Shown in pieces: positions 156 to 20,231 of a DNA stretch of 36,307 bases. The notes beneath the pieces were generated by a model that saw only the letters and a program-made list of their open reading frames with translations, searched no databases and had not been told where the DNA came from. Made by a program: the position numbers and the translations under genes. The DNA is from Cyclobacteriaceae bacterium (GTDB taxonomy: Bacteria; Bacteroidota; Bacteroidia; Cytophagales; Cyclobacteriaceae), in the NCBI GenBank assembly GCA_028278585.1, contig JANQEC010000303.1, positions 1-36,307 on the forward strand, in the 5' to 3' direction. The first letter of the stretch is position 1, and every line of letters begins with the position of its first letter.

Positions 156-332
156 TTAATTCCTATCTTCTTCAAAGGATTCTTCTTCACTAAATACTTC
201 TTCTGCGTATACTACGCCATCCAGATCTTCAATTGGTGGTGAAGGAACCGGCGAAATACTTTGAGTGTCGTCCTCACAAGCAAAAAACGCCATGAGAACC
301 ATGATTCCGATAATCTGTTTTAACGATTTCAT
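156..332 (-). CDS. Small acidic putative lipoprotein (58 aa), absent from the supplied ORF track
   Basis: Translated by hand: MKSLKQIIGIMVLMAFFACEDDTQSISPVPSPPIEDLDGVVYAEEVFSEEESFEEDRN*. Type II signal-like N-terminus with Cys19 followed by EDD; terminator just downstream. Confidence 0.65.
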   Translation of the reverse strand: MKSLKQIIGIMVLMAFFACEDDTQSISPVPSPPIEDLDGVVYAEEVFSEEESFEEDRN

Positions 333-421
333 AATTTCAACATTTAAAAATTAACTTGCTTTGGTACCATGTACACATCTGATTTTCAGTGTGCAATCCT
401 TAATGAACTTTTAAGGAATAA

Positions 422-547
422 GTAACCCATCCAGGTAAGTTCAGGTTTATAATTAATTTAATACCAGTATTTGTAACTTTATTTTATTGCACGGATAGCG
501 TACCTTTTTTGAATGCCACAACCAAAAATTGCTATGGGTTGGGTTAC
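422..547. promoter_or_regulatory. Inverted pair of TGGGTTAC motifs in the divergent intergenic region
   Basis: GTAACCCA at 422-429 and TGGGTTAC at 540-547; extended similarity TGGGTTACTTATTC (minus) versus TGGGTTACCTTTTATATTC (plus). Confidence 0.45.
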
Positions 548-581
548 CTTTTATATTCATGATCATTAACTCCAGAATCTA

Positions 582-1154
582 ATGGACGACAAGGTGATCC
601 TTGAGAACATAAGAAATGGTGACCAAAAACAGCTAGCGCTGGTATATCGATCCTACCAATCAGAATTTATAGCCTGGTTGGTAAAGGAACACAATTGCAA
701 TCGCGATGAAGCAAAAGACATATACCAGGTTTCCATTATTGCTTTGTATGAGAATATCATAAGTGGGAAGTTGACAACACTGACCAGCAATTTAAAGACG
801 TACTTGTATTCCATTGCCAAGCACAAAGTCTTTGAATTCAGAAGAAAGGAAAATAAAATAGATCGAAGTGTAGGTGTTCAAACGATCGAACTTGAGGAGC
901 TTGTCAATTGGGATGCTATTGATAAAGAGAAGAACCTTGTTGTAATGGAAAAGAGTCTCGAGAAGCTTGGAGATCCATGCAAAACGCTCTTGGAATTATA
1001 TTATTTCCACGGACTCTCAATGGAAGAAATTGCAGAAAAAATCGGCTATAAGAACAGTGCAACAGCCAAAAACCTAAAATGTAAATGTATAGTGAGATTG
1101 AGAAAAATCTTTGAAAATGAAATTCAAAAATTAAGTGATGATTTGATCAATTGA
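582..1154 (+). CDS. RNA polymerase sigma factor, sigma-70/ECF family
   Basis: Region 2-like DEAKDIYQVSIIALYENI...YLYSIAKHKVFEFRRK and region 4-like LLELYYFHGLSMEEIAEKIGYKNSATAKNLKCKCIVRLRK. Confidence 0.88.
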   Translation: MDDKVILENIRNGDQKQLALVYRSYQSEFIAWLVKEHNCNRDEAKDIYQVSIIALYENIISGKLTTLTSNLKTYLYSIAKHKVFEFRRKENKIDRSVGVQTIELEELVNWDAIDKEKNLVVMEKSLEKLGDPCKTLLELYYFHGLSMEEIAEKIGYKNSATAKNLKCKCIVRLRKIFENEIQKLSDDLIN

Positions 1155-1179
1155 GCGCCAGCAAAATAGTAATTTGAAA

Positions 1180-1947
1180 ATGAAGAATGAATACGAGGAT
1201 ATTGAACAATTAGAACGCTATCAAAAAGGTGAGTGTACAAGTGAGGAGAAAAAGGAAGTAGAAGATCGACTCGCAAATGATGAAGCATTTCGTGGGCTTT
1301 ATGATGACATGGAGTTGATGGTGTTAGGTTTGAAAAGAACTTCAGGAGGCTCGAGTATCGAAGATAAGATAGAACTTCTTAGAAAAACCGTAGAACTTAA
1401 TGAAGAAAGAGAGGTTATCAATCTTAAATCCTGGTTCACCAAAACACGGATAAATCTTTCCATCGCTGCTGTCATTTCCCTTTTGATTGCTTCCATGTTT
1501 CTTTTCAACAACGTAGGAAACAATAGCCCGGAAAGCCTTTTCCAGGATTATTTTCAACCCTATGAAAATCTCAATAGTGCCTTACGGGGCAACGAGCAAG
1601 AAATTGATAATATAACCAGGGCTTATTTGGCCTACGAAAGAGGCGAATTTGAAAACGCAATCCTCTTGTTTGGAAACATTGATTCGATTACCGAAAACAG
1701 GACTACCCATCAATTTTATCTTGGAAATGCCTATTTAGGTATTGGTGAAGGGAAAAATGCAATTCCATTGTTCCTGGAGGTTTCCCGTTCAACATCCATT
1801 CTTGCGGATACGGCTAAATGGTATTTGGCTCTGAGCCACTTACAAAATCGTGACACTGAAAAAGCAAAAAAAATATTAATCGAGATTCAAAATTCAAGAA
1901 ATGATTATTCAAGTCAATCAAAAGAACTTTTAGAGAAACTAAACTAA
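1180..1947 (+). CDS. Single-pass membrane protein with anti-sigma-like N-terminus and TPR-like C-terminus
   Basis: IEQLERYQKGECTSEEKKEVEDRLANDEAFR resembles Bacteroidota anti-sigma N-termini; TM INLSIAAVISLLIASMFLF; TPR-like GEFENAILLFGNI...FYLGNAYLGIGEGKNAIPLFLEV. Track start 1174 is TTG; ATG at 1180 preferred. Confidence 0.7.
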   Translation: MKNEYEDIEQLERYQKGECTSEEKKEVEDRLANDEAFRGLYDDMELMVLGLKRTSGGSSIEDKIELLRKTVELNEEREVINLKSWFTKTRINLSIAAVISLLIASMFLFNNVGNNSPESLFQDYFQPYENLNSALRGNEQEIDNITRAYLAYERGEFENAILLFGNIDSITENRTTHQFYLGNAYLGIGEGKNAIPLFLEVSRSTSILADTAKWYLALSHLQNRDTEKAKKILIEIQNSRNDYSSQSKELLEKLN

Positions 1948-1953
1948 CCAACC

Positions 1954-3504
1954 ATGCCAAGTAAAACGGAACTCGCGGAGCTTCTAAGAAAAGCCTCCGA
2001 ATTCAAAAACTATGTGACGAATGAATTACAATACTTCATTCAGTACTATGACAAGGCCATTTATGAGCTCAGCTTTGATTTTGATAGAAATGGTAAAGTC
2101 GAGGGTAAACCCCTAAAAGATCAAAAAGAAAAAGAAAGGTTCTTTCAACCAATCGTCTCTTTGCTTGAGGGGTATAGCAAAAAGTTTCATACGTCTTATG
2201 AAAATTGGGAAAGACAAATAAAAGACTATGGAAAGATTTATTTTAACAACGACGAGGACCGACTTCACTTGTCGATGAGCCGCTCTACATTCACAAATGA
2301 TGACTATGGAAATCTTACTCCTTTTGGTCCCTGGTTGGTAAGAAATGGTGAATTAATGGGACATCATCAAATCGGGGTTCTTGATGCGATGATCTCTCAA
2401 CTACCTCAGCCGCAGTTGCAAAATGGTAAACTGATTGTAGATGATCCCGGCAAAAATGGATTGATAAAAATTCAAATGATCCTCATTTTGGTCCAAAAAC
2501 AATTCATAAGTCTTTTAGGAAGAGTTTTAGCTAAGAAGATGGGCACGAATGATCTCAGAGAAGGATGGAACGATCCCCCGCTCGTACAGCTTTCTGACGG
2601 AAATACAGGTGCATGGGCCGCTGATAGGGAGATCCCCGTAATCATTCATGTTAACAAAACGCTAGCCACATCGGATGTTCATGATACCCGTGTTTCAGCA
2701 TATGCCGCTGTTGCCCACGAATTTGGTCACAAGATTTCAGACAGCTTTACTAAAGACCGACTTATCCAGGATTTGATAGAAAACATAGAAAGAAGGAAGC
2801 ATAAACATGGATTTATATGGGGATCCTGGATGCATGAAATCTTTGCTGATGCAGTTGGAATCCGGTTATTAGGTAAAGTGGCAATCGATGGACTTAAAAA
2901 AGTGCTAGAAAACAGGCTTATAGAAGGAGTTGAACCACCAGATCTGATCATCCAAAATTTCAGATTTGATAGCGAGACAATCCCCTATGAACCTCATCCC
3001 AATACTTTCCTAAGATTCTTCATTGGATTGGAGCTTGCCGATCAATTGGGGAGAATACGCAAGAAAAACGAGAAAGATGAAAACGAGAAGGAGGGCAAGT
3101 ACAAGGAAGATTATTGGGACGAATGGAAAGAGATTTACAAGGAAAATTTTCCAAACCTTTATGAAGCTCATAAAGATGATTTTGACAAAAATATATTTCA
3201 CTTTAAAGATCAGATAAATGAGGAAGCAGTTATAATAGATACCGACGAGATTAATCGAATAGTTGATGCCATATTAAATACACGATTACGCTCTTTGCCG
3301 TGTCAAGGCTTCCGTTTACTTCTACCTGGCTTCAAAATAACAAGGCCTCAAATATTTGGGATTACAGTAATTGGGTTTCGTCTGTATTGGATCCCATGGA
3401 TCGGATATAGAAAAGCAAAAACACTTATTCAGCATCTGGATGAGGATGAAGATGGGACAATAAAAAAGTTGCTAAAAGCTTTTGAAGCTTTGCAAGCGGC
3501 TTAA
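1954..3504 (+). CDS. Gluzincin-like putative metalloprotease, family not recognised
   Basis: AHEFGHKISD (HExxH at 2716-2730) and WMHEIFADAVG (ExxAD at 2836-2850); no signal peptide. Confidence 0.6.
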   Translation: MPSKTELAELLRKASEFKNYVTNELQYFIQYYDKAIYELSFDFDRNGKVEGKPLKDQKEKERFFQPIVSLLEGYSKKFHTSYENWERQIKDYGKIYFNNDEDRLHLSMSRSTFTNDDYGNLTPFGPWLVRNGELMGHHQIGVLDAMISQLPQPQLQNGKLIVDDPGKNGLIKIQMILILVQKQFISLLGRVLAKKMGTNDLREGWNDPPLVQLSDGNTGAWAADREIPVIIHVNKTLATSDVHDTRVSAYAAVAHEFGHKISDSFTKDRLIQDLIENIERRKHKHGFIWGSWMHEIFADAVGIRLLGKVAIDGLKKVLENRLIEGVEPPDLIIQNFRFDSETIPYEPHPNTFLRFFIGLELADQLGRIRKKNEKDENEKEGKYKEDYWDEWKEIYKENFPNLYEAHKDDFDKNIFHFKDQINEEAVIIDTDEINRIVDAILNTRLRSLPCQGFRLLLPGFKITRPQIFGITVIGFRLYWIPWIGYRKAKTLIQHLDEDEDGTIKKLLKAFEALQAA

Positions 3505-3549
3505 CCCCCAATGATTTATAAAAAAATCCAACCTTAAAATTCCAAAATC

Positions 3550-4650
3550 ATGAAAAAAATTAGAAAAAATCCAAGAATCCGACCTCTAAGAGCAAGGTAC
3601 CACGAAGCTGACTCGCACATTCACGATACCAGACATGAAGCCGGCTCCATTTTACATGACACAAGACATGAAGCTGATTCACACATCCATGACACAAGAC
3701 ACGAGGCTGACTCACACGTTCATGATACCGGGCATGAAGCTGACTCACACGTTCATGACACAAGACATGAAGCTGACTCACATGTTCATGACACTCGCTA
3801 TAATTCCGGCCCGGATCTACATGATACACAACATTTTTTACGTGGGAAAGAACATGGGAATACTCATTTGGTTGAGGGTGAAATTAAATTTGAAAATGAC
3901 GAGATCAAAAGCCCGGGTGCTGCTGAGCACAAGCAACATCATACGAATTACTCTATTGTTTTAAACAACGAAGAGGGAAAGATCATTGATAAAAACAGTA
4001 GTTATTTCTATCGAGGTTATGAGCAATACACGCAAAGAGGATATTTGACGATGAAACCAATAAAAGATCCTGAAGGAAATGAAGTTTCCAAAGATGAAGT
4101 CTATTTATTGTTTCATAATGACAAACGTCATCAAACATACAAAGGTGAAGAAAACAGAAGGGTATACTTCCAGGTGAGAAATGCTTCTCTGATTCTCAAC
4201 TCACACATTTTAAAGATACCTCTGGCATGTAACTTCGATGTAGTTCCACATCAACCAGTTTTTCCTGGCATTCATAACTTTGTTTGCCATAATGGTGGCG
4301 AACTCCAAGTCGATGAAAATAGCTTTAAAGTAGACCCGTCCACAAAGGGTGATGTCAAAATCAATAACAAACATTTGATTAATCCTGTAAACATCGTCAC
4401 AGCAGATATTGCTTCTATGAACACGGTGACTGTGAAAATTGAGAATTTCAATATCCAATCAAAAAATTCAGAACCACATTGGGGCTACATAAGACTTAAC
4501 AGGGACATAGAGCCAAAAAGGGACATTATTTTATTTGTCAGCAATCAACCTATTGGCGAGTTAAACGATGTTAAGGAATTTGAAATCAGGACCGTTCCCA
4601 TTCTCCTGGCTGGTAATGTTATGGAACTGGACATTGCCTATTTCAAGTAG
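3550..4650 (+). CDS. Hypothetical protein with N-terminal 11-aa His/Asp-rich tandem repeats
   Basis: 366-aa ORF with repeats HDTRHEADSH[IV], then a C-terminal region with no recognised family; co-directional with upstream genes. Confidence 0.75.
   Translation: MKKIRKNPRIRPLRARYHEADSHIHDTRHEAGSILHDTRHEADSHIHDTRHEADSHVHDTGHEADSHVHDTRHEADSHVHDTRYNSGPDLHDTQHFLRGKEHGNTHLVEGEIKFENDEIKSPGAAEHKQHHTNYSIVLNNEEGKIIDKNSSYFYRGYEQYTQRGYLTMKPIKDPEGNEVSKDEVYLLFHNDKRHQTYKGEENRRVYFQVRNASLILNSHILKIPLACNFDVVPHQPVFPGIHNFVCHNGGELQVDENSFKVDPSTKGDVKINNKHLINPVNIVTADIASMNTVTVKIENFNIQSKNSEPHWGYIRLNRDIEPKRDIILFVSNQPIGELNDVKEFEIRTVPILLAGNVMELDIAYFK
3601..3834. repeat. 33-bp in-frame tandem repeat, about 7 copies
   Basis: HDT recurs at residues 25, 36, 47, 58, 69, 80 and 91 of the 3550 ORF, exactly 11 aa apart. 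Confidence 0.9.
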
Positions 4651-4656
4651 TGGTGA

Positions 4657-7377
4657 CTAATTAGTTGACCGTTTTCTCCTATAAATGTAGATGATGATGG
4701 AGAGAGAAATCAAAATTATCACTGTCCAGTAAATGGATTTTTGGCTTTCGAATAAAATTGAGGAACCATCTCCTAAGACGATAAATGAGGACCAGAAATG
4801 CGGGTGTGTATTAACAAAGTTTCCATTTGCCAGGTATTCAAGTTGGCTACTTCTCAAAGAATTGGATATGGACGAGCCTTGATTTAATTCACTATAAAAG
4901 TTTGTCATTAACTCGACAGTTTGCAGATCCCGAACCTTCCACAAGCTGGTCACAATGGCTGAACTACCTGCCAGAGCAAACCCTCTTGCAATACTAAAAA
5001 CACCCTCTCCGTCATAGAAAGTACCCAATCCCGTTTCACACGCACTTAACACAGTAAGTTTATTATTGAGTTTCATAGGATAAATCTCATACGCATGAAG
5101 CCTTCCATCATTAGAAGCGTCCTCTCCTTTTGCAAAGGCTATGTTTGGCTCAAAGACATCATCTCCGGATGACGCATGGCTCGCGATATGGATTATATTG
5201 TAATCGGGAGCGTGACGTTTAAAATTATCTTCTGTACTCACCTCGGAATTGAAAATGTCCATTTTTTTCCAAACGGATTCTATTCGTGACAACTCGTTTT
5301 GAGTCCCCGCCAACTCCATAGATGAGAAGCCCAATACTCTATTGAATTTGTAATCGATGTTTGATTTCAATGCCAAAATGCTTGCCGAAAAAGCATAACT
5401 AATGGTATAATCCCGAATCAAATAGGAAAGGTTTTTGTAATTTATTTCTTCAATGGTATCGGGAATTTCCGAAATAAGAGAAGCAAATGGCAGCATGTTT
5501 AGTCTCCCATCTGGCACAATTATAAGCTCCTGGATATCCGAATTACTTTCCCCTTCAATTGTAGATAAGAATGGCTCTAAAATGGCATTATATATTGTAC
5601 TGGAACTTTCTACAAACTGTTGAAAACTTTGTTCTCCAGAATCAAAATCTACGGTACTAACTGTACGAATATACGTGTCTAAATAATCATCTAGCCCTTC
5701 CGTATTTAGCTCCAAAAAGTAAGATCCCGCCTTAGAAATTGCCAATCCATATAAGGACTCACTTCCCCAGAAATAGTTTATCATTAATTGGTGATCTTCA
5801 AGATAATCCTGGAGTTCTCCAACAGATTTGACATTATTCTCTATCGTGTTTTCAATTCTTGCATCTTCTTCGATAAGATCCTTTTCGCTTCTAAGCAGTA
5901 TTACTTTACTTATTAATGCTTCAATATTTTGATACCCACTGGATTCTTCAATTTTGGCCAGTTGAATCTGCTGTCTAACATCATCTATATCCTTTTGAAG
6001 AAGCATGACTTCCTTTTGAAACTCCTTTAGCTTACCAACCTGATTGTCTATCATCCTATTCCTTAGCAGAATCGATTGCTTGATTCCTTCTATGTATTTC
6101 AAAGCAGATTCAATGAAACCAGGATCTTGATCCCTTTCATGCATTAAGAGTGTGGCTCTGAGCGCATTGCTGTAAATCTCTTTTGCGTGTTCAGCCAAAT
6201 GAAGTGAGGGACTATTGTCCTCAAGCCCAAAACGTAGATCTGCGATTACACTTGCTGCTAATTCATATACCTCATAAGAACTTATGAGGTATTTTTCCTC
6301 ACCACTTTCACTATATAAGTCTAGCAAAACATCTCCCTTTTCATTTAAAACAAGATAGATCTGAGGATTTAAAGTTTGGTCAGAAGTGGGTATTTCCGGA
6401 TTTTGTAATTCAGATGTAGGATTGAAATTTCTTAATCCTGTTTTTAGGGATTTTTGAAGAAAAAAAAGCGAGCTGTCTTTTTGATCAAACTTCCTGTACA
6501 TCTGCCCCAAGAGCATATTTCTACGTGATACCGAATAACCCTTTCCCGAAATACTCACATCCCCACCAGAAGCTAAATTGTAATAGTGTTTAGCCAAGGT
6601 CATCTCACCAAGGTCAACATGGTTAGCTGCCATATTTTGGTGGTTATCACGAATCATTGCAGAATCATAGGGATCTAGACTCTCAAACCACTTAATTGAT
6701 TTCAGGTAAGCTTGGTTACTTCTTGAAGGATCGTTCGCCCTTTTGTATGTCAATCCAAGATTAGAATACCAGAAGGCAAGATCTCGATCACTAGTAGGCT
6801 TCTCACTTAAACGTATTGTAATTGCATTTTTTATGAACCTGATCGCATCATCGTAATTCCGTTCATCAGAATGAATATTGCCCATCATGCTATTGCACTT
6901 TGCAATAAGTCTTTTGTCTCCAAGCCTGGAAGCCATAATTATCGCAAGCTCCCCATACTCCTTCGCCTGATCATAATTAAGTCTTTCTCTTTCAGTAATA
7001 GCAAGTCCGTAGTAGATTCTCTGCTTTTGCTCCATCGAAATCAAATCATTGTTTCTGGATAAGCTCAAAGCCTCAAACAAATACTGAAAGGCTCCATCAT
7101 AATTTGGGTTGTCAAAGTCAAAACGTAAAGCATATCCCTTTCCAATGAGGGTTCTTACGTAATTTGGGATATCCAAATTCTTAATTGCCAGTTGAGATGC
7201 TGAATCATAATAGACATAAGATTTAGCATCTTCAAAAATCGCCTGAAGCGAATCTCCTTTACTCAGATAATAATTCAGGCTATCTTGCCCAATACATAGA
7301 AAGTATGCTTGAAGGAAGATGGTGAGTGTGATAAGTCTTCTCATCAAAAGGTTGGTTGAATGGCTAATCAAATTCAA
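4657..7377 (-). CDS. CHAT domain protein with signal peptide, TPR region, coiled coil and C-terminal TM
   Basis: IIHIASHASSGDD (candidate catalytic His codon 5176-5178) and LTVLSACETGLGTFYDGEGVFSIARGFALAGSSAIVTSLW (candidate Cys codon 5038-5040); TPR-like N-terminal half; C-terminal YWTVIILISLSIIIYIYRRKR. M12 at 7344 is a likely alternative start. Confidence 0.9.
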   Translation of the reverse strand: MNLISHSTNLLMRRLITLTIFLQAYFLCIGQDSLNYYLSKGDSLQAIFEDAKSYVYYDSASQLAIKNLDIPNYVRTLIGKGYALRFDFDNPNYDGAFQYLFEALSLSRNNDLISMEQKQRIYYGLAITERERLNYDQAKEYGELAIIMASRLGDKRLIAKCNSMMGNIHSDERNYDDAIRFIKNAITIRLSEKPTSDRDLAFWYSNLGLTYKRANDPSRSNQAYLKSIKWFESLDPYDSAMIRDNHQNMAANHVDLGEMTLAKHYYNLASGGDVSISGKGYSVSRRNMLLGQMYRKFDQKDSSLFFLQKSLKTGLRNFNPTSELQNPEIPTSDQTLNPQIYLVLNEKGDVLLDLYSESGEEKYLISSYEVYELAASVIADLRFGLEDNSPSLHLAEHAKEIYSNALRATLLMHERDQDPGFIESALKYIEGIKQSILLRNRMIDNQVGKLKEFQKEVMLLQKDIDDVRQQIQLAKIEESSGYQNIEALISKVILLRSEKDLIEEDARIENTIENNVKSVGELQDYLEDHQLMINYFWGSESLYGLAISKAGSYFLELNTEGLDDYLDTYIRTVSTVDFDSGEQSFQQFVESSSTIYNAILEPFLSTIEGESNSDIQELIIVPDGRLNMLPFASLISEIPDTIEEINYKNLSYLIRDYTISYAFSASILALKSNIDYKFNRVLGFSSMELAGTQNELSRIESVWKKMDIFNSEVSTEDNFKRHAPDYNIIHIASHASSGDDVFEPNIAFAKGEDASNDGRLHAYEIYPMKLNNKLTVLSACETGLGTFYDGEGVFSIARGFALAGSSAIVTSLWKVRDLQTVELMTNFYSELNQGSSISNSLRSSQLEYLANGNFVNTHPHFWSSFIVLGDGSSILFESQKSIYWTVIILISLSIIIYIYRRKRSTN

Positions 7378-17039: not shown

Positions 17040-20000
17040 TCAATTGTTCAGTGGTTCAGTCTTCTTCGGTACAGTTAAAATTGGAGCGTCTTTACTTTTG
17101 AACAACTCATTAAACTCTTTGATATCCTTTTGGACCAGTTCTTCAAAAGACTGTTTCATTCCACCCCATGACTCCTCCAGGTCACTCATCCTTTCTTTGT
17201 AGCTCTCCGGCACCTGGGGATCATAGGTATCAAGGTTGTTTCTCAGAAAGAAAAATTCGGAATTGATCCCTGCGGGCCAATTCAACACATCCTGGAATCC
17301 TTTTTGACGAAGTTCTATAACAGGGGCTCTCCAGTCCTCCATTTTTTCCTGAAGTTTATCAATTGCATTTTGGACGTCTTCCATTCCTTCCTCTTCCCCG
17401 TATTGTTCCTCAATGGATTCAAGTTGTTTGGAAATTTTCATTGCATCATTCACCGAGTTATGAATTTCATTGATACGATCTTCGATTCGCTCCATCAAGT
17501 CTTGTTGCTCGGCCCACTGCTGCTCAGAGATATTGATGTCAGGGGGATCCATGATCACTATTTCGACTTCAGAAACAAGGTCTCCAAGTGTCATCCTCGC
17601 TTTATATGTCCCTGGAGCTACGCGATGACCTCTATAGTCGCCTTCGAAAATAAAAACACCAGGGACCTCCTGAAGTTTGTTAGTTCGATAGTTCCATGTG
17701 AAACGATTTAATCCTTTGTTCACGGGTAGATCTTCTGTATTTGGAGCGGGGATGTTTCCCCTTCCGCCCTGCATTTTCACTTCGATCTCTTCATTCCCTT
17801 TGAACGAACGAATAACTTCATCCTCACTATTAAATATTTCTAAAGTCAAACTTTCAGCGCTATCAGGAATATTTTGCAAATTGTAATGAAGCGTAACGCC
17901 CTCAGGTGGGTTTTCTCCATATCCATGTTCTGTTATTAAATAGAAAGGTGGTGAGCCAAAGGATCGATAGACAGGCTTCGGTTCATAAAGTTTCACGGCA
18001 TCTCTAAATTGTCCTTTAGATTGCTGAATGGATGAAAGATCATCAAGGATCCAAAATCCACGTCCTGCAGTGGATGCTGCCAGATCGTTATCTCGAATCA
18101 CAAGATCTGTAATCGAAACAACAGGCATATTTAGTTGCATTTGCTGAAAGCTGGTGCCTGCATCAAACGAAATGTAGAATCCGCGTTCACCTCCCGCATA
18201 TAATAGTCCCGGGGTTTTTGTGTCTTCACGAACAACCCTGAAAAAATCATCCTTTTGAATGTCATCACCAATTTTTCTCCAGCTGGAACCATAGTCTGTT
18301 GATTTGTAGCTGTAGTTTTTATAATCATTGAATTTGTACCGGGTTGAAGTGAAATACACTGTCGCTTTGTCATGGGGTGAAACTTCAATGGAGTGAATCA
18401 TCGTTTCAGGGAGACCGGATGGTGTAATGTCTGTCCAGCTAGATCCTCCATCTCGAGTCACCTGGATCATACCTCCATCTGTTCCTGTGTAAATAACACC
18501 TTCTTCCAATGCAGATTCAGCGATATAATAGATTGTATTGTAGTTTTCACCTCCGGCTCCCTCATTCGTAAATGGACCGCCACCTTGCCCTTGTTTCTCT
18601 TTATCATTTTTAGTCAGGTCAGGACTTATTGGTGTCCACTCTAAACCTCCATTAGTCGTTTTGAAGAGCACATTTCCTCCATAATACATGGTTTGTGGAT
18701 CATGTTGTGAATTGATCAGCGGTGCATTCCAATTGAACCTGTACTTCATATTCTTAGGTTCATATCCCAGGGTGGTTTCCGGGTAAACCATGATGTTCTT
18801 TGCCTCCCTGGTTTTAACATCCAGAAGACTGATCCGGCCATTGAAGCATCCTCCATACAACACTCGCGGATTTGCTGGATCATCCATGGCTACCATGGCG
18901 CTTTCGCAGCCCGGTCCATTGAACCAGTCAGTGCTTAGTATTCCATAATTCTTACTCCTGGAAGGAATGACAACTGAAAAATTATCTTGCTGCCCGCCGT
19001 AAATCCAAAAGGGAATTTGTCTGTCCGCCGTGATCCGATAGATCTGGGCTGTAGATTGATTGTTAAAACTCGACCAGGTTTTTCCCTTGTTGAAAGAAAT
19101 GGTTGCTCCACCATCTTCAGCTAATGCAATATTGTTACTGTTTTCTGGATTAATAAAAAGTTCATGACAATCACCATGGATCATTCGCATACTTTCAAAG
19201 GTCTTTCCTCCATCAACGGATCTCATCAATGGAGCATTCAACACATAAACTAAATCCGGGTTGGTCGGATCTGCGGTTACTTCCATGTAGTACCAGGATC
19301 GTGATGTTATTGTCTTGTCGTTGGACATCAATTTCCATGAAGACCCTGCATCATCCGACCGGTACAGTCCAGCTACTTCCTTATCAGATTCTATGATGGC
19401 GAAAATACGTTGAGGATTTGCTGGCGAGACCGCAATTCCAATTTTCCCCATCATCTCAGGAAGTCCTTTTGCGATCTTTGTCCATGTTTCCCCACCGTCA
19501 ACAGATTTATAAATAGAGGAACCAGGACCGCCACTCTCTACTTTCCAAGGGTATCTTCGGTGCTCCCAGGTCGAAGCATACAATATTCTTGGGTTAGATG
19601 GGTCCATGCTAAGTCCTGAGACTCCCGTACCTTCATTTACATACAGGGTTTTCTTCCAGGTTTTACCTCCATCTACAGATTTATAGATCCCGCGATCTGC
19701 GGACGGACCATGAACTGGACCCTGGGCACCAATGAATACAATATCAGGGTTAGTTGGATGAACAATGACATCAGAAATGTGCCGTGTTCCGGTGAGGCCA
19801 ATGTTCTTCCATGTCTTTCCTGCGTCTTCAGATTTATAAACGCCATCTCCGTAGGAAGTCATTACTCCTCGGACGGCGTGTTCCCCACTCCCAACATACA
19901 CTACATTTGGATCAGACTTACTTACAGCAATATCACCGATTGAACCTACTTTAAAGTATCCATCTGAAACATTGTACCAATTGTATCCTGCATCTTCAGT

Positions 20001-20231
20001 TTTCCAAACGCCTCCACCAGTATAACCAGCATAATACACCTGGTCATTTCCTGAAATACCTGTGATAGAATTAGCACGACCACCACGATACGGACCAAGG
20101 TTTCTCCACTTTAGTCCTTCATATTCAGTTGTCGAGAATAAAGGAGGTGTAGTACGCTTCCGCCGTTGAGCATCAGAATCATAAATTGTTAGAATAGAAA
20201 GAACAAGTAAAACGGATAATGGCCTCTTCAT
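17040..20231 (-). CDS. Secreted Vps10/sortilin-like BNR-repeat protein
   Basis: Signal peptide; many Asp-box/BNR motifs (YKSEDAGKTWKNIG, YKSVDGGKTWKKT, YRSDDAGSSWKLM, TRDGGSSWTDI). Confidence 0.88.
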   Translation of the reverse strand: MKRPLSVLLVLSILTIYDSDAQRRKRTTPPLFSTTEYEGLKWRNLGPYRGGRANSITGISGNDQVYYAGYTGGGVWKTEDAGYNWYNVSDGYFKVGSIGDIAVSKSDPNVVYVGSGEHAVRGVMTSYGDGVYKSEDAGKTWKNIGLTGTRHISDVIVHPTNPDIVFIGAQGPVHGPSADRGIYKSVDGGKTWKKTLYVNEGTGVSGLSMDPSNPRILYASTWEHRRYPWKVESGGPGSSIYKSVDGGETWTKIAKGLPEMMGKIGIAVSPANPQRIFAIIESDKEVAGLYRSDDAGSSWKLMSNDKTITSRSWYYMEVTADPTNPDLVYVLNAPLMRSVDGGKTFESMRMIHGDCHELFINPENSNNIALAEDGGATISFNKGKTWSSFNNQSTAQIYRITADRQIPFWIYGGQQDNFSVVIPSRSKNYGILSTDWFNGPGCESAMVAMDDPANPRVLYGGCFNGRISLLDVKTREAKNIMVYPETTLGYEPKNMKYRFNWNAPLINSQHDPQTMYYGGNVLFKTTNGGLEWTPISPDLTKNDKEKQGQGGGPFTNEGAGGENYNTIYYIAESALEEGVIYTGTDGGMIQVTRDGGSSWTDITPSGLPETMIHSIEVSPHDKATVYFTSTRYKFNDYKNYSYKSTDYGSSWRKIGDDIQKDDFFRVVREDTKTPGLLYAGGERGFYISFDAGTSFQQMQLNMPVVSITDLVIRDNDLAASTAGRGFWILDDLSSIQQSKGQFRDAVKLYEPKPVYRSFGSPPFYLITEHGYGENPPEGVTLHYNLQNIPDSAESLTLEIFNSEDEVIRSFKGNEEIEVKMQGGRGNIPAPNTEDLPVNKGLNRFTWNYRTNKLQEVPGVFIFEGDYRGHRVAPGTYKARMTLGDLVSEVEIVIMDPPDINISEQQWAEQQDLMERIEDRINEIHNSVNDAMKISKQLESIEEQYGEEEGMEDVQNAIDKLQEKMEDWRAPVIELRQKGFQDVLNWPAGINSEFFFLRNNLDTYDPQVPESYKERMSDLEESWGGMKQSFEELVQKDIKEFNELFKSKDAPILTVPKKTEPLNN

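Follow-up and report, generated by a model that had tools for sequence, protein, structure and literature searches.

A sigma/anti-sigma switch with a convergent TPR-CHAT protease gene: a candidate envelope signalling module in a Cyclobacteriaceae bacterium

Introduction

What does a TPR-CHAT protease do beside a sigma factor? The question is raised by a 36,307-bp stretch of DNA from a Cyclobacteriaceae bacterium (assembly GCA_028278585.1, contig JANQEC010000303.1; hereafter the window), in which a TPR-CHAT gene on the opposite strand ends 6 bp from the end, at 4650, of the last gene in an extracytoplasmic function (ECF) sigma factor operon. TPR-CHAT proteins are abundant in Bacteroidota, and most of them have no known job. 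In type III-E CRISPR, the TPR-CHAT protein Csx29 cuts Csx30, and the inhibition of CASP-sigma is lifted (PMC10028731). A sequence-only reading of the window had proposed that the CHAT protease or a neighbouring gluzincin releases the sigma factor from a membrane anti-sigma. We found the sigma/anti-sigma/CHAT arrangement repeatedly among related genomes. With moderate confidence, we propose that an autoregulated switch of ECF sigma factor and membrane anti-sigma is coupled in this locus to a TPR-CHAT protease that is anchored in the membrane and faces the periplasm, and that the locus includes an exchangeable CHAT-linked cassette.

Results

Genes of the locus

The open reading frames (ORFs) of the window bore out the six genes of the sequence-only reading, together with their coordinates, strands and gaps. 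The third slot is the gene or genes between the anti-sigma and CHAT genes.

156..332, minus strand: small lipoprotein gene (58 amino acids) divergent from the sigma operon; from its translation, with a syntenic 58-residue orthologue in the relative G002
582..1154, plus strand: ECF sigma factor (190 amino acids); Pfam PF07638, NCBIfam TIGR02937 and an 81% identical G002 orthologue
1180 (ATG)..1947, alternative TTG start at 1174, plus strand: anti-sigma candidate; predicted cytoplasmic N-terminus, one transmembrane segment and periplasmic TPR-like C-terminus
1954..3504, plus strand: candidate gluzincin-type HExxH metalloprotease (516 amino acids); HEFGH...HEIFAD, no signal peptide, orphan sequence
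3550..4650, plus strand: His-repeat protein (366 amino acids), counterpart of the third-slot gene of relatives
4657..7377, minus strand: TPR-CHAT protease gene; Pfam CHAT E 1.4e-50, likely ATG at 7344, N-terminal signal peptide, C-terminal transmembrane segment and basic tail

The gaps from the sigma gene through the anti-sigma and 1954 genes to the 3550 gene were 19, 6 and 45 bp. The sigma product, a short protein with sigma-70 regions 2 and 4, scored 41.9 bits against Pfam Sigma70_ECF (cut-off 21.1) and was also above the cut-off of TIGR02937. The anti-sigma candidate has a single transmembrane segment and a TPR below the Pfam threshold, and its homologues come after the sigma gene in 116 loci. 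Both the His (ASHA) and the Cys (SACETG) motifs of the window CHAT domain (PF12770) are intact. From the predicted topology, the TPR and protease parts of CHAT should face the periplasm, on the same membrane side as the anti-sigma TPR, so that CHAT would be able to serve as a site-1 protease. The lipoprotein starts MKSLKQIIGIMVLMAFFACEDDTQ... and carries the lipobox ..AFFAC.

Recurrence of the module

The surroundings of CHAT genes were annotated with the window proteins, and then with hidden Markov models (HMMs) made from the resulting matches. Sigma homologues were present in 95 of 297 family genomes (E 1e-30). From the sigma homologues plus TPR-CHAT loci, 116 sigma/anti-sigma pairs were gathered, about a dozen of which came from CHAT-fetched loci, the remainder having been picked by sigma similarity only. 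A TPR-CHAT gene was located no more than 6 kb downstream in 78 of these pairs and was convergent, as in the window, in 74; in 10 further pairs it was upstream, so that 88 of the 116 have CHAT up to about 7 kb away, upstream or downstream. Named carriers of the module include Roseivirga, Chryseolinea, Agaribacillus and Lewinellaceae. Roseivirga thermotolerans and Chryseolinea sp. H1M3-3 are cultivable examples in which sigma, anti-sigma and third-slot genes are followed by a convergent CHAT gene. Among 72 CHAT proteins, the His motif was found in all 72, the Cys motif in 71, an N-terminal hydrophobic stretch in 60 and a C-terminal transmembrane segment in 66.

Judged by gene order, this recurrence in dozens of relatives is more than chance, and the conserved signalling unit that had been suspected (sigma factor, transmembrane/TPR anti-sigma and convergent TPR-CHAT) was recovered. 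Genomes of the genus have several TPR-CHAT genes, with as many as 19 matches in one genome. The window's own genome holds a second sigma/anti-sigma/convergent CHAT locus, which has no third-slot gene (L234; G000:C170).

A promoter-like element and its predicted regulon

Two exact copies of a bipartite element were found between the divergent lipoprotein gene and the sigma operon.

400..428, minus strand: promoter-like element GGGTTAC-N16-CATTAA before the lipoprotein gene, exact match
541..569, plus strand: promoter-like element GGGTTAC-N16-CATTAA before the sigma operon, exact match

Only 0.07 exact sites were expected in the window, and none of 100 shuffles gave two. In 29 of the 116 loci, GGGTTAC stood 29-44 bp 5' of the sigma start, and in most of these CATTAA or a near variant followed 16 nt on. 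When positions were binned by 25 bp, 29 sites fell in the bin from -50 to -25 and no more than 3 in any other, giving a consensus of fixed position and spacing, GGGTTAC-N16-CATWAA. Genome-wide, there were 6 exact sites in the window's own genome, whose assembly is 73.8% complete, and 5 in G002, the two genus genomes having this sigma factor; the eight genus genomes without it had 0, 0, 0, 0, 0, 1, 0 and 1 (2 in total), and a control with the reversed element gave 0 in all nine relatives. Genome comparison thus demonstrates the element and its co-distribution with the sigma factor.

With one mismatch allowed, the bipartite element gave 25 sites in the own genome against 33 for the control, and the -35-like element by itself, with 2 mismatches, showed no excess over control there. 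Since the one-mismatch counts did not exceed the control, the regulon scan was restricted to exact bipartite sites. Among the genes behind these sites in both genomes are ones for SnoaL-like secreted proteins, which are related to one another (three-sequence search, E 1.5e-6), and for lipoproteins that have a common N-terminus, each adjoining outer-membrane-type proteins; two own-genome sites near TPR-type genes at contig ends gave little information. A GGGTTAC element also precedes a LuxR-type regulator at L019, L048 and L059; at L097, L101 and L102 it stands before a gene that resembles class III adenylate cyclases and diverges from the sigma locus. The predicted products downstream of the element are largely secreted, outer-membrane or lipoproteins. 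An envelope-directed output, as the sequence-only reading had supposed, is borne out by the promoter shared by lipoprotein, outer-membrane protein and secreted genes, and the locus looks like an envelope alarm with its own recognisable promoter.

The cassette between the anti-sigma and CHAT genes

The 42 third-slot proteins fell into 28 clusters lacking mutual similarity. Motif enumeration identified G.[VI]..P in 9 of the 28 independent clusters, where 1.0 was expected (z 8.0; the best shuffle reached 6.0), and in many of these proteins a small beta domain follows. A profile built from eight third-slot proteins and searched against the PDB matched two stretches of the cold-shock/OB-fold protein UNR (CSDE1, PDB 6y6m; whole-chain E 0.0011). 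The family differs from cold-shock proteins in having no Pfam cold-shock match and in including lipoproteins and membrane-anchored members. Across the 297 genomes, the OB-like profile gave 12 matches, all 12 of them at CHAT or sigma/anti-sigma loci. A third-slot structure predicted from L144 was of low confidence (predicted local distance difference test score, pLDDT, 53). These comparisons indicate a slot that changes fast and often encodes a small OB/cold-shock-like protein.

A GxVxDP motif was considered as a cleavage or docking site and dropped; it fits better as the first strand of an OB/cold-shock-like domain, and it occurs as well in short lipoproteins without that domain. In Roseivirga and relatives (L061, L063, L074, L077, L080, L084, L088 and L092), the third-slot proteins have 46-69 residues, an acidic N-terminus and often an xxDPKPxxP-like stretch, and most end in CGCG after a single C-terminal transmembrane segment. 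At L056:6643-7003, the third-slot gene is seemingly interrupted: a short lipoprotein ends GHVHDPPPGENFN, and after it come a stop and a stretch similar to the next strands of the OB-like domain.

The window counterpart, the His-repeat protein, has no Pfam family and no BLAST-level homologue in 98 relatives. Three regions were distinguished in it.

3601..3828, plus strand: seven 11-residue repeats (R/GHEADSHVHDT)
3997..4194, plus strand: possible OB-like copy (residues 150-215), a weak HMM stretch
4429..4650, plus strand: putative C-terminal OB-like domain; five-stranded model, Foldseek and HMM score

The repeats come from a 33-bp tandem repeat of 5.8 copies and contain about three His per 11 residues. 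Residues 105-366 scored 14.0 bits against the family HMM, more than 3000 of 3000 shuffles, with an E of 0.012 that is weak alone; 7 background ORFs scored higher, and all 7 were third-slot-type genes. The last 73 residues gave a five-stranded model (pLDDT 79), for which the top Foldseek matches were mainly OB folds, none of them significant (E 0.24 or worse). Because the HMM score lies above the shuffles and the model matches OB folds, the protein likely belongs to the OB-like family or is closely analogous to it, with a His-rich repeat in addition, and a C-terminal OB fold is likely from the model.

The 1954 product has the gluzincin pattern (HExxH plus a downstream glutamate, ExxxD), with HEFGH followed about 40 residues on by HEIFAD. 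It had no Pfam (peptidase) family at E up to 1, weak partial matches only in 396 phylum genomes, and no homologue in GTDB contigs, plasmids, viral contigs or the PDB. The sequence-only reading had tied its proposal to the co-occurrence of 1954, 3550 and CHAT homologues. Since two orphans would, taken literally, speak against it, position instead of sequence was examined. The outcome was mixed: the 1954 and 3550 proteins themselves have no BLAST-level homologues in the collections searched, but equivalents (another HExxH family and OB-like proteins) fill the slots beside CHAT. In the G002 and L043 loci, an HExxH protein sits between the OB-like gene and CHAT. The profile of this family had 7 strong matches in the 297 genomes, all 7 directly adjoining CHAT, and the OB-like gene converges on the HExxH gene in 6 of 6 loci with a readable flank (L296 by its motif, below the HMM threshold). 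Four trio loci (L232, L296, L297 and L298) lack a sigma pair. In an hhalign comparison, the window gluzincin matched the CHAT-linked HExxH family in the active-site stretch only (probability 17%), and what we claim is functional equivalence in a shared slot, not common descent. Gene neighbourhoods and profile matches establish the module, the OB-like relation of its cargo, and a recurrent trio of CHAT, gluzincin and OB-like genes that is here coupled to the apparently autoregulated sigma switch.

Longer relatives (about 630-660 residues) of the CHAT-linked HExxH protein were found at L299 (G042:C7) and L300 (G033:C14), in a separate shared gene group with patatin-like and metallo-beta-lactamase-like proteins, and other Bacteroidota also have long forms of this kind. 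Elsewhere in the window, a large secreted protein, unremarkable for the group, is encoded at 17040-20231; its repeats are beta-propeller repeats of the sortilin type.

A syntenic locus and competing explanations

In G002, the equivalent locus is flanked by matching genes on both sides (AraC-like, 67% identical; NHL-like, 76%), and the 250-bp intergenic region is strongly conserved. Identity between the two loci was 81% for the sigma factor, 60% for the lipoprotein, 44% for the anti-sigma and 30% for CHAT, and the cargo was unrelated. The window CHAT did not group with the G002 CHAT in a tree that had low support around the window branch. Since CHAT and cargo differ so much while the sigma factors are so similar, these comparisons suggest either that CHAT and cargo were swapped or that they diverged very rapidly while the switch was kept.

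The results could also mean that CHAT is an effector or sensor apart from anti-sigma cleavage. Ordinary regulated proteolysis, by site-1/site-2 proteases whose genes lie elsewhere, would then free the sigma factor, and CHAT and its cassette would be neighbourhood cargo or a sigma target. We regard this as possible, if somewhat doubtful. It would account for the trio loci without a sigma pair, for sigma homologues without CHAT, and for a window CHAT that is not sister to the syntenic one despite the 81% identical sigma factors. However, the 74 convergent pairs over many genera and the matching TPR topology favour a functional link, and CHAT as a sigma output is disfavoured by the lack of a promoter element upstream of it.

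Several observations weigh against the coupled switch. No CHAT gene was nearby in 28 of the 116 pairs, some of them at contig ends, and the Chitinophaga and Pontibacter sigma homologues have none; on this gene content, CHAT is dispensable for some sigma factors of this type. The promoter element was found at no more than 29 of the 116 sigma loci and, as said, not upstream of CHAT. A signal peptide is lacking in both HExxH families and in a number of third-slot proteins, many OB-like ones among them, whereas CHAT is apparently periplasmic; direct contact between CHAT and these non-exported proteins is unexplained, and location is the weak point of the proposal.

The identity gradient between the window and G002, falling from sigma factor to cargo between well-conserved flanks, is also what a conflict or self-recognition island would give, in which a kept switch controls fast-changing proteases and cargo directed against rivals or phage and the OB-like protein is a protease inhibitor. 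This is unlikely: no PADLOC defence model scored meaningfully on any protein, and the regulon is of envelope type, not toxin type. In a further reading, CHAT lies beside the other two proteins incidentally, the His-repeat protein serving to buffer metal and the gluzincin being a housekeeping peptidase. This would suit the His-rich repeat and the lack of a Pfam family for either protein, but is very improbable given the recurrence of HExxH and OB-like genes beside CHAT and gaps of just 6 and 45 bp.

Discussion

In the autoregulated switch that we propose, the anti-sigma would keep the sigma factor at the membrane in the resting state. An envelope signal would activate the CHAT protease, and the periplasmic TPR part of the anti-sigma would be removed or opened. 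From GGGTTAC-N16-CATTAA sites, the freed sigma factor would then transcribe its own operon, the divergent lipoprotein gene and a few genes for secreted, outer-membrane and lipoproteins. Cleavage of the anti-sigma by CHAT is plausible, as it would fit the topology and the Csx29/Csx30/CASP-sigma precedent; binding of the sigma factor by the anti-sigma and the role of the cassette we infer. The gluzincin and the His-repeat/OB-like protein would form an exchangeable cassette tied to CHAT. Because OB-like genes stay with CHAT when the sigma factor or the gluzincin is missing, the OB-like protein would be the likeliest CHAT partner, most probably as substrate or regulator. Lacking a signal peptide, the 1954 gluzincin is a poor candidate for the periplasmic cut and may be a second, downstream protease. 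More tentatively, CHAT, gluzincin and OB-like protein might make up a module with two proteases, not described before, and the OB-like protein might be a CHAT substrate that restrains the gluzincin; here the module would be wired to an ECF switch, as a CRISPR-free envelope counterpart of Csx29/Csx30/CASP-sigma.

Among the closest known systems is type III-E CASP/Craspase (Cas7-11, Csx29, Csx30 and CASP-sigma; PMC10028731), in which a TPR-CHAT protein likewise adjoins an ECF sigma factor and its inhibitor and proteolysis lifts sigma inhibition, as may happen here. In contrast, the window CHAT is anchored in the membrane and carries a signal peptide, and the inhibitor is a transmembrane/TPR protein, not Csx30. 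The Csx29 model NF041237 scored 13.7 bits on the window CHAT (cut-off 300), and the window ORFs included no Cas7-11-like one; CRISPR repeats were not searched for genome-wide. RseA/RsiW-type regulated proteolysis resembles the locus in its operon of sigma factor and single-pass anti-sigma with an apparently autoregulated promoter, but here the candidate protease is a convergent caspase-like CHAT and the anti-sigma sensor is TPR-like. The Bacteroidales dual-membrane-spanning systems (PMC9308784, PMC13088901) are, in the accessible parts of these papers, likewise Bacteroidota ECF/anti-sigma pairs with envelope-stress regulons; their anti-sigmas extend to an outer-membrane barrel, and those parts mention no CHAT partner. 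The open-access literature on CHAT with ECF/anti-sigma pairs in Bacteroidota did not describe the present arrangement outside type III-E CRISPR.

The predicted promoter and its small regulon, taken with a gene order that is fixed and a family of candidate substrates, make the function of TPR-CHAT proteins directly testable. Such work could show that caspase-like control of sigma factors is a general bacterial envelope mechanism and not a CRISPR peculiarity.

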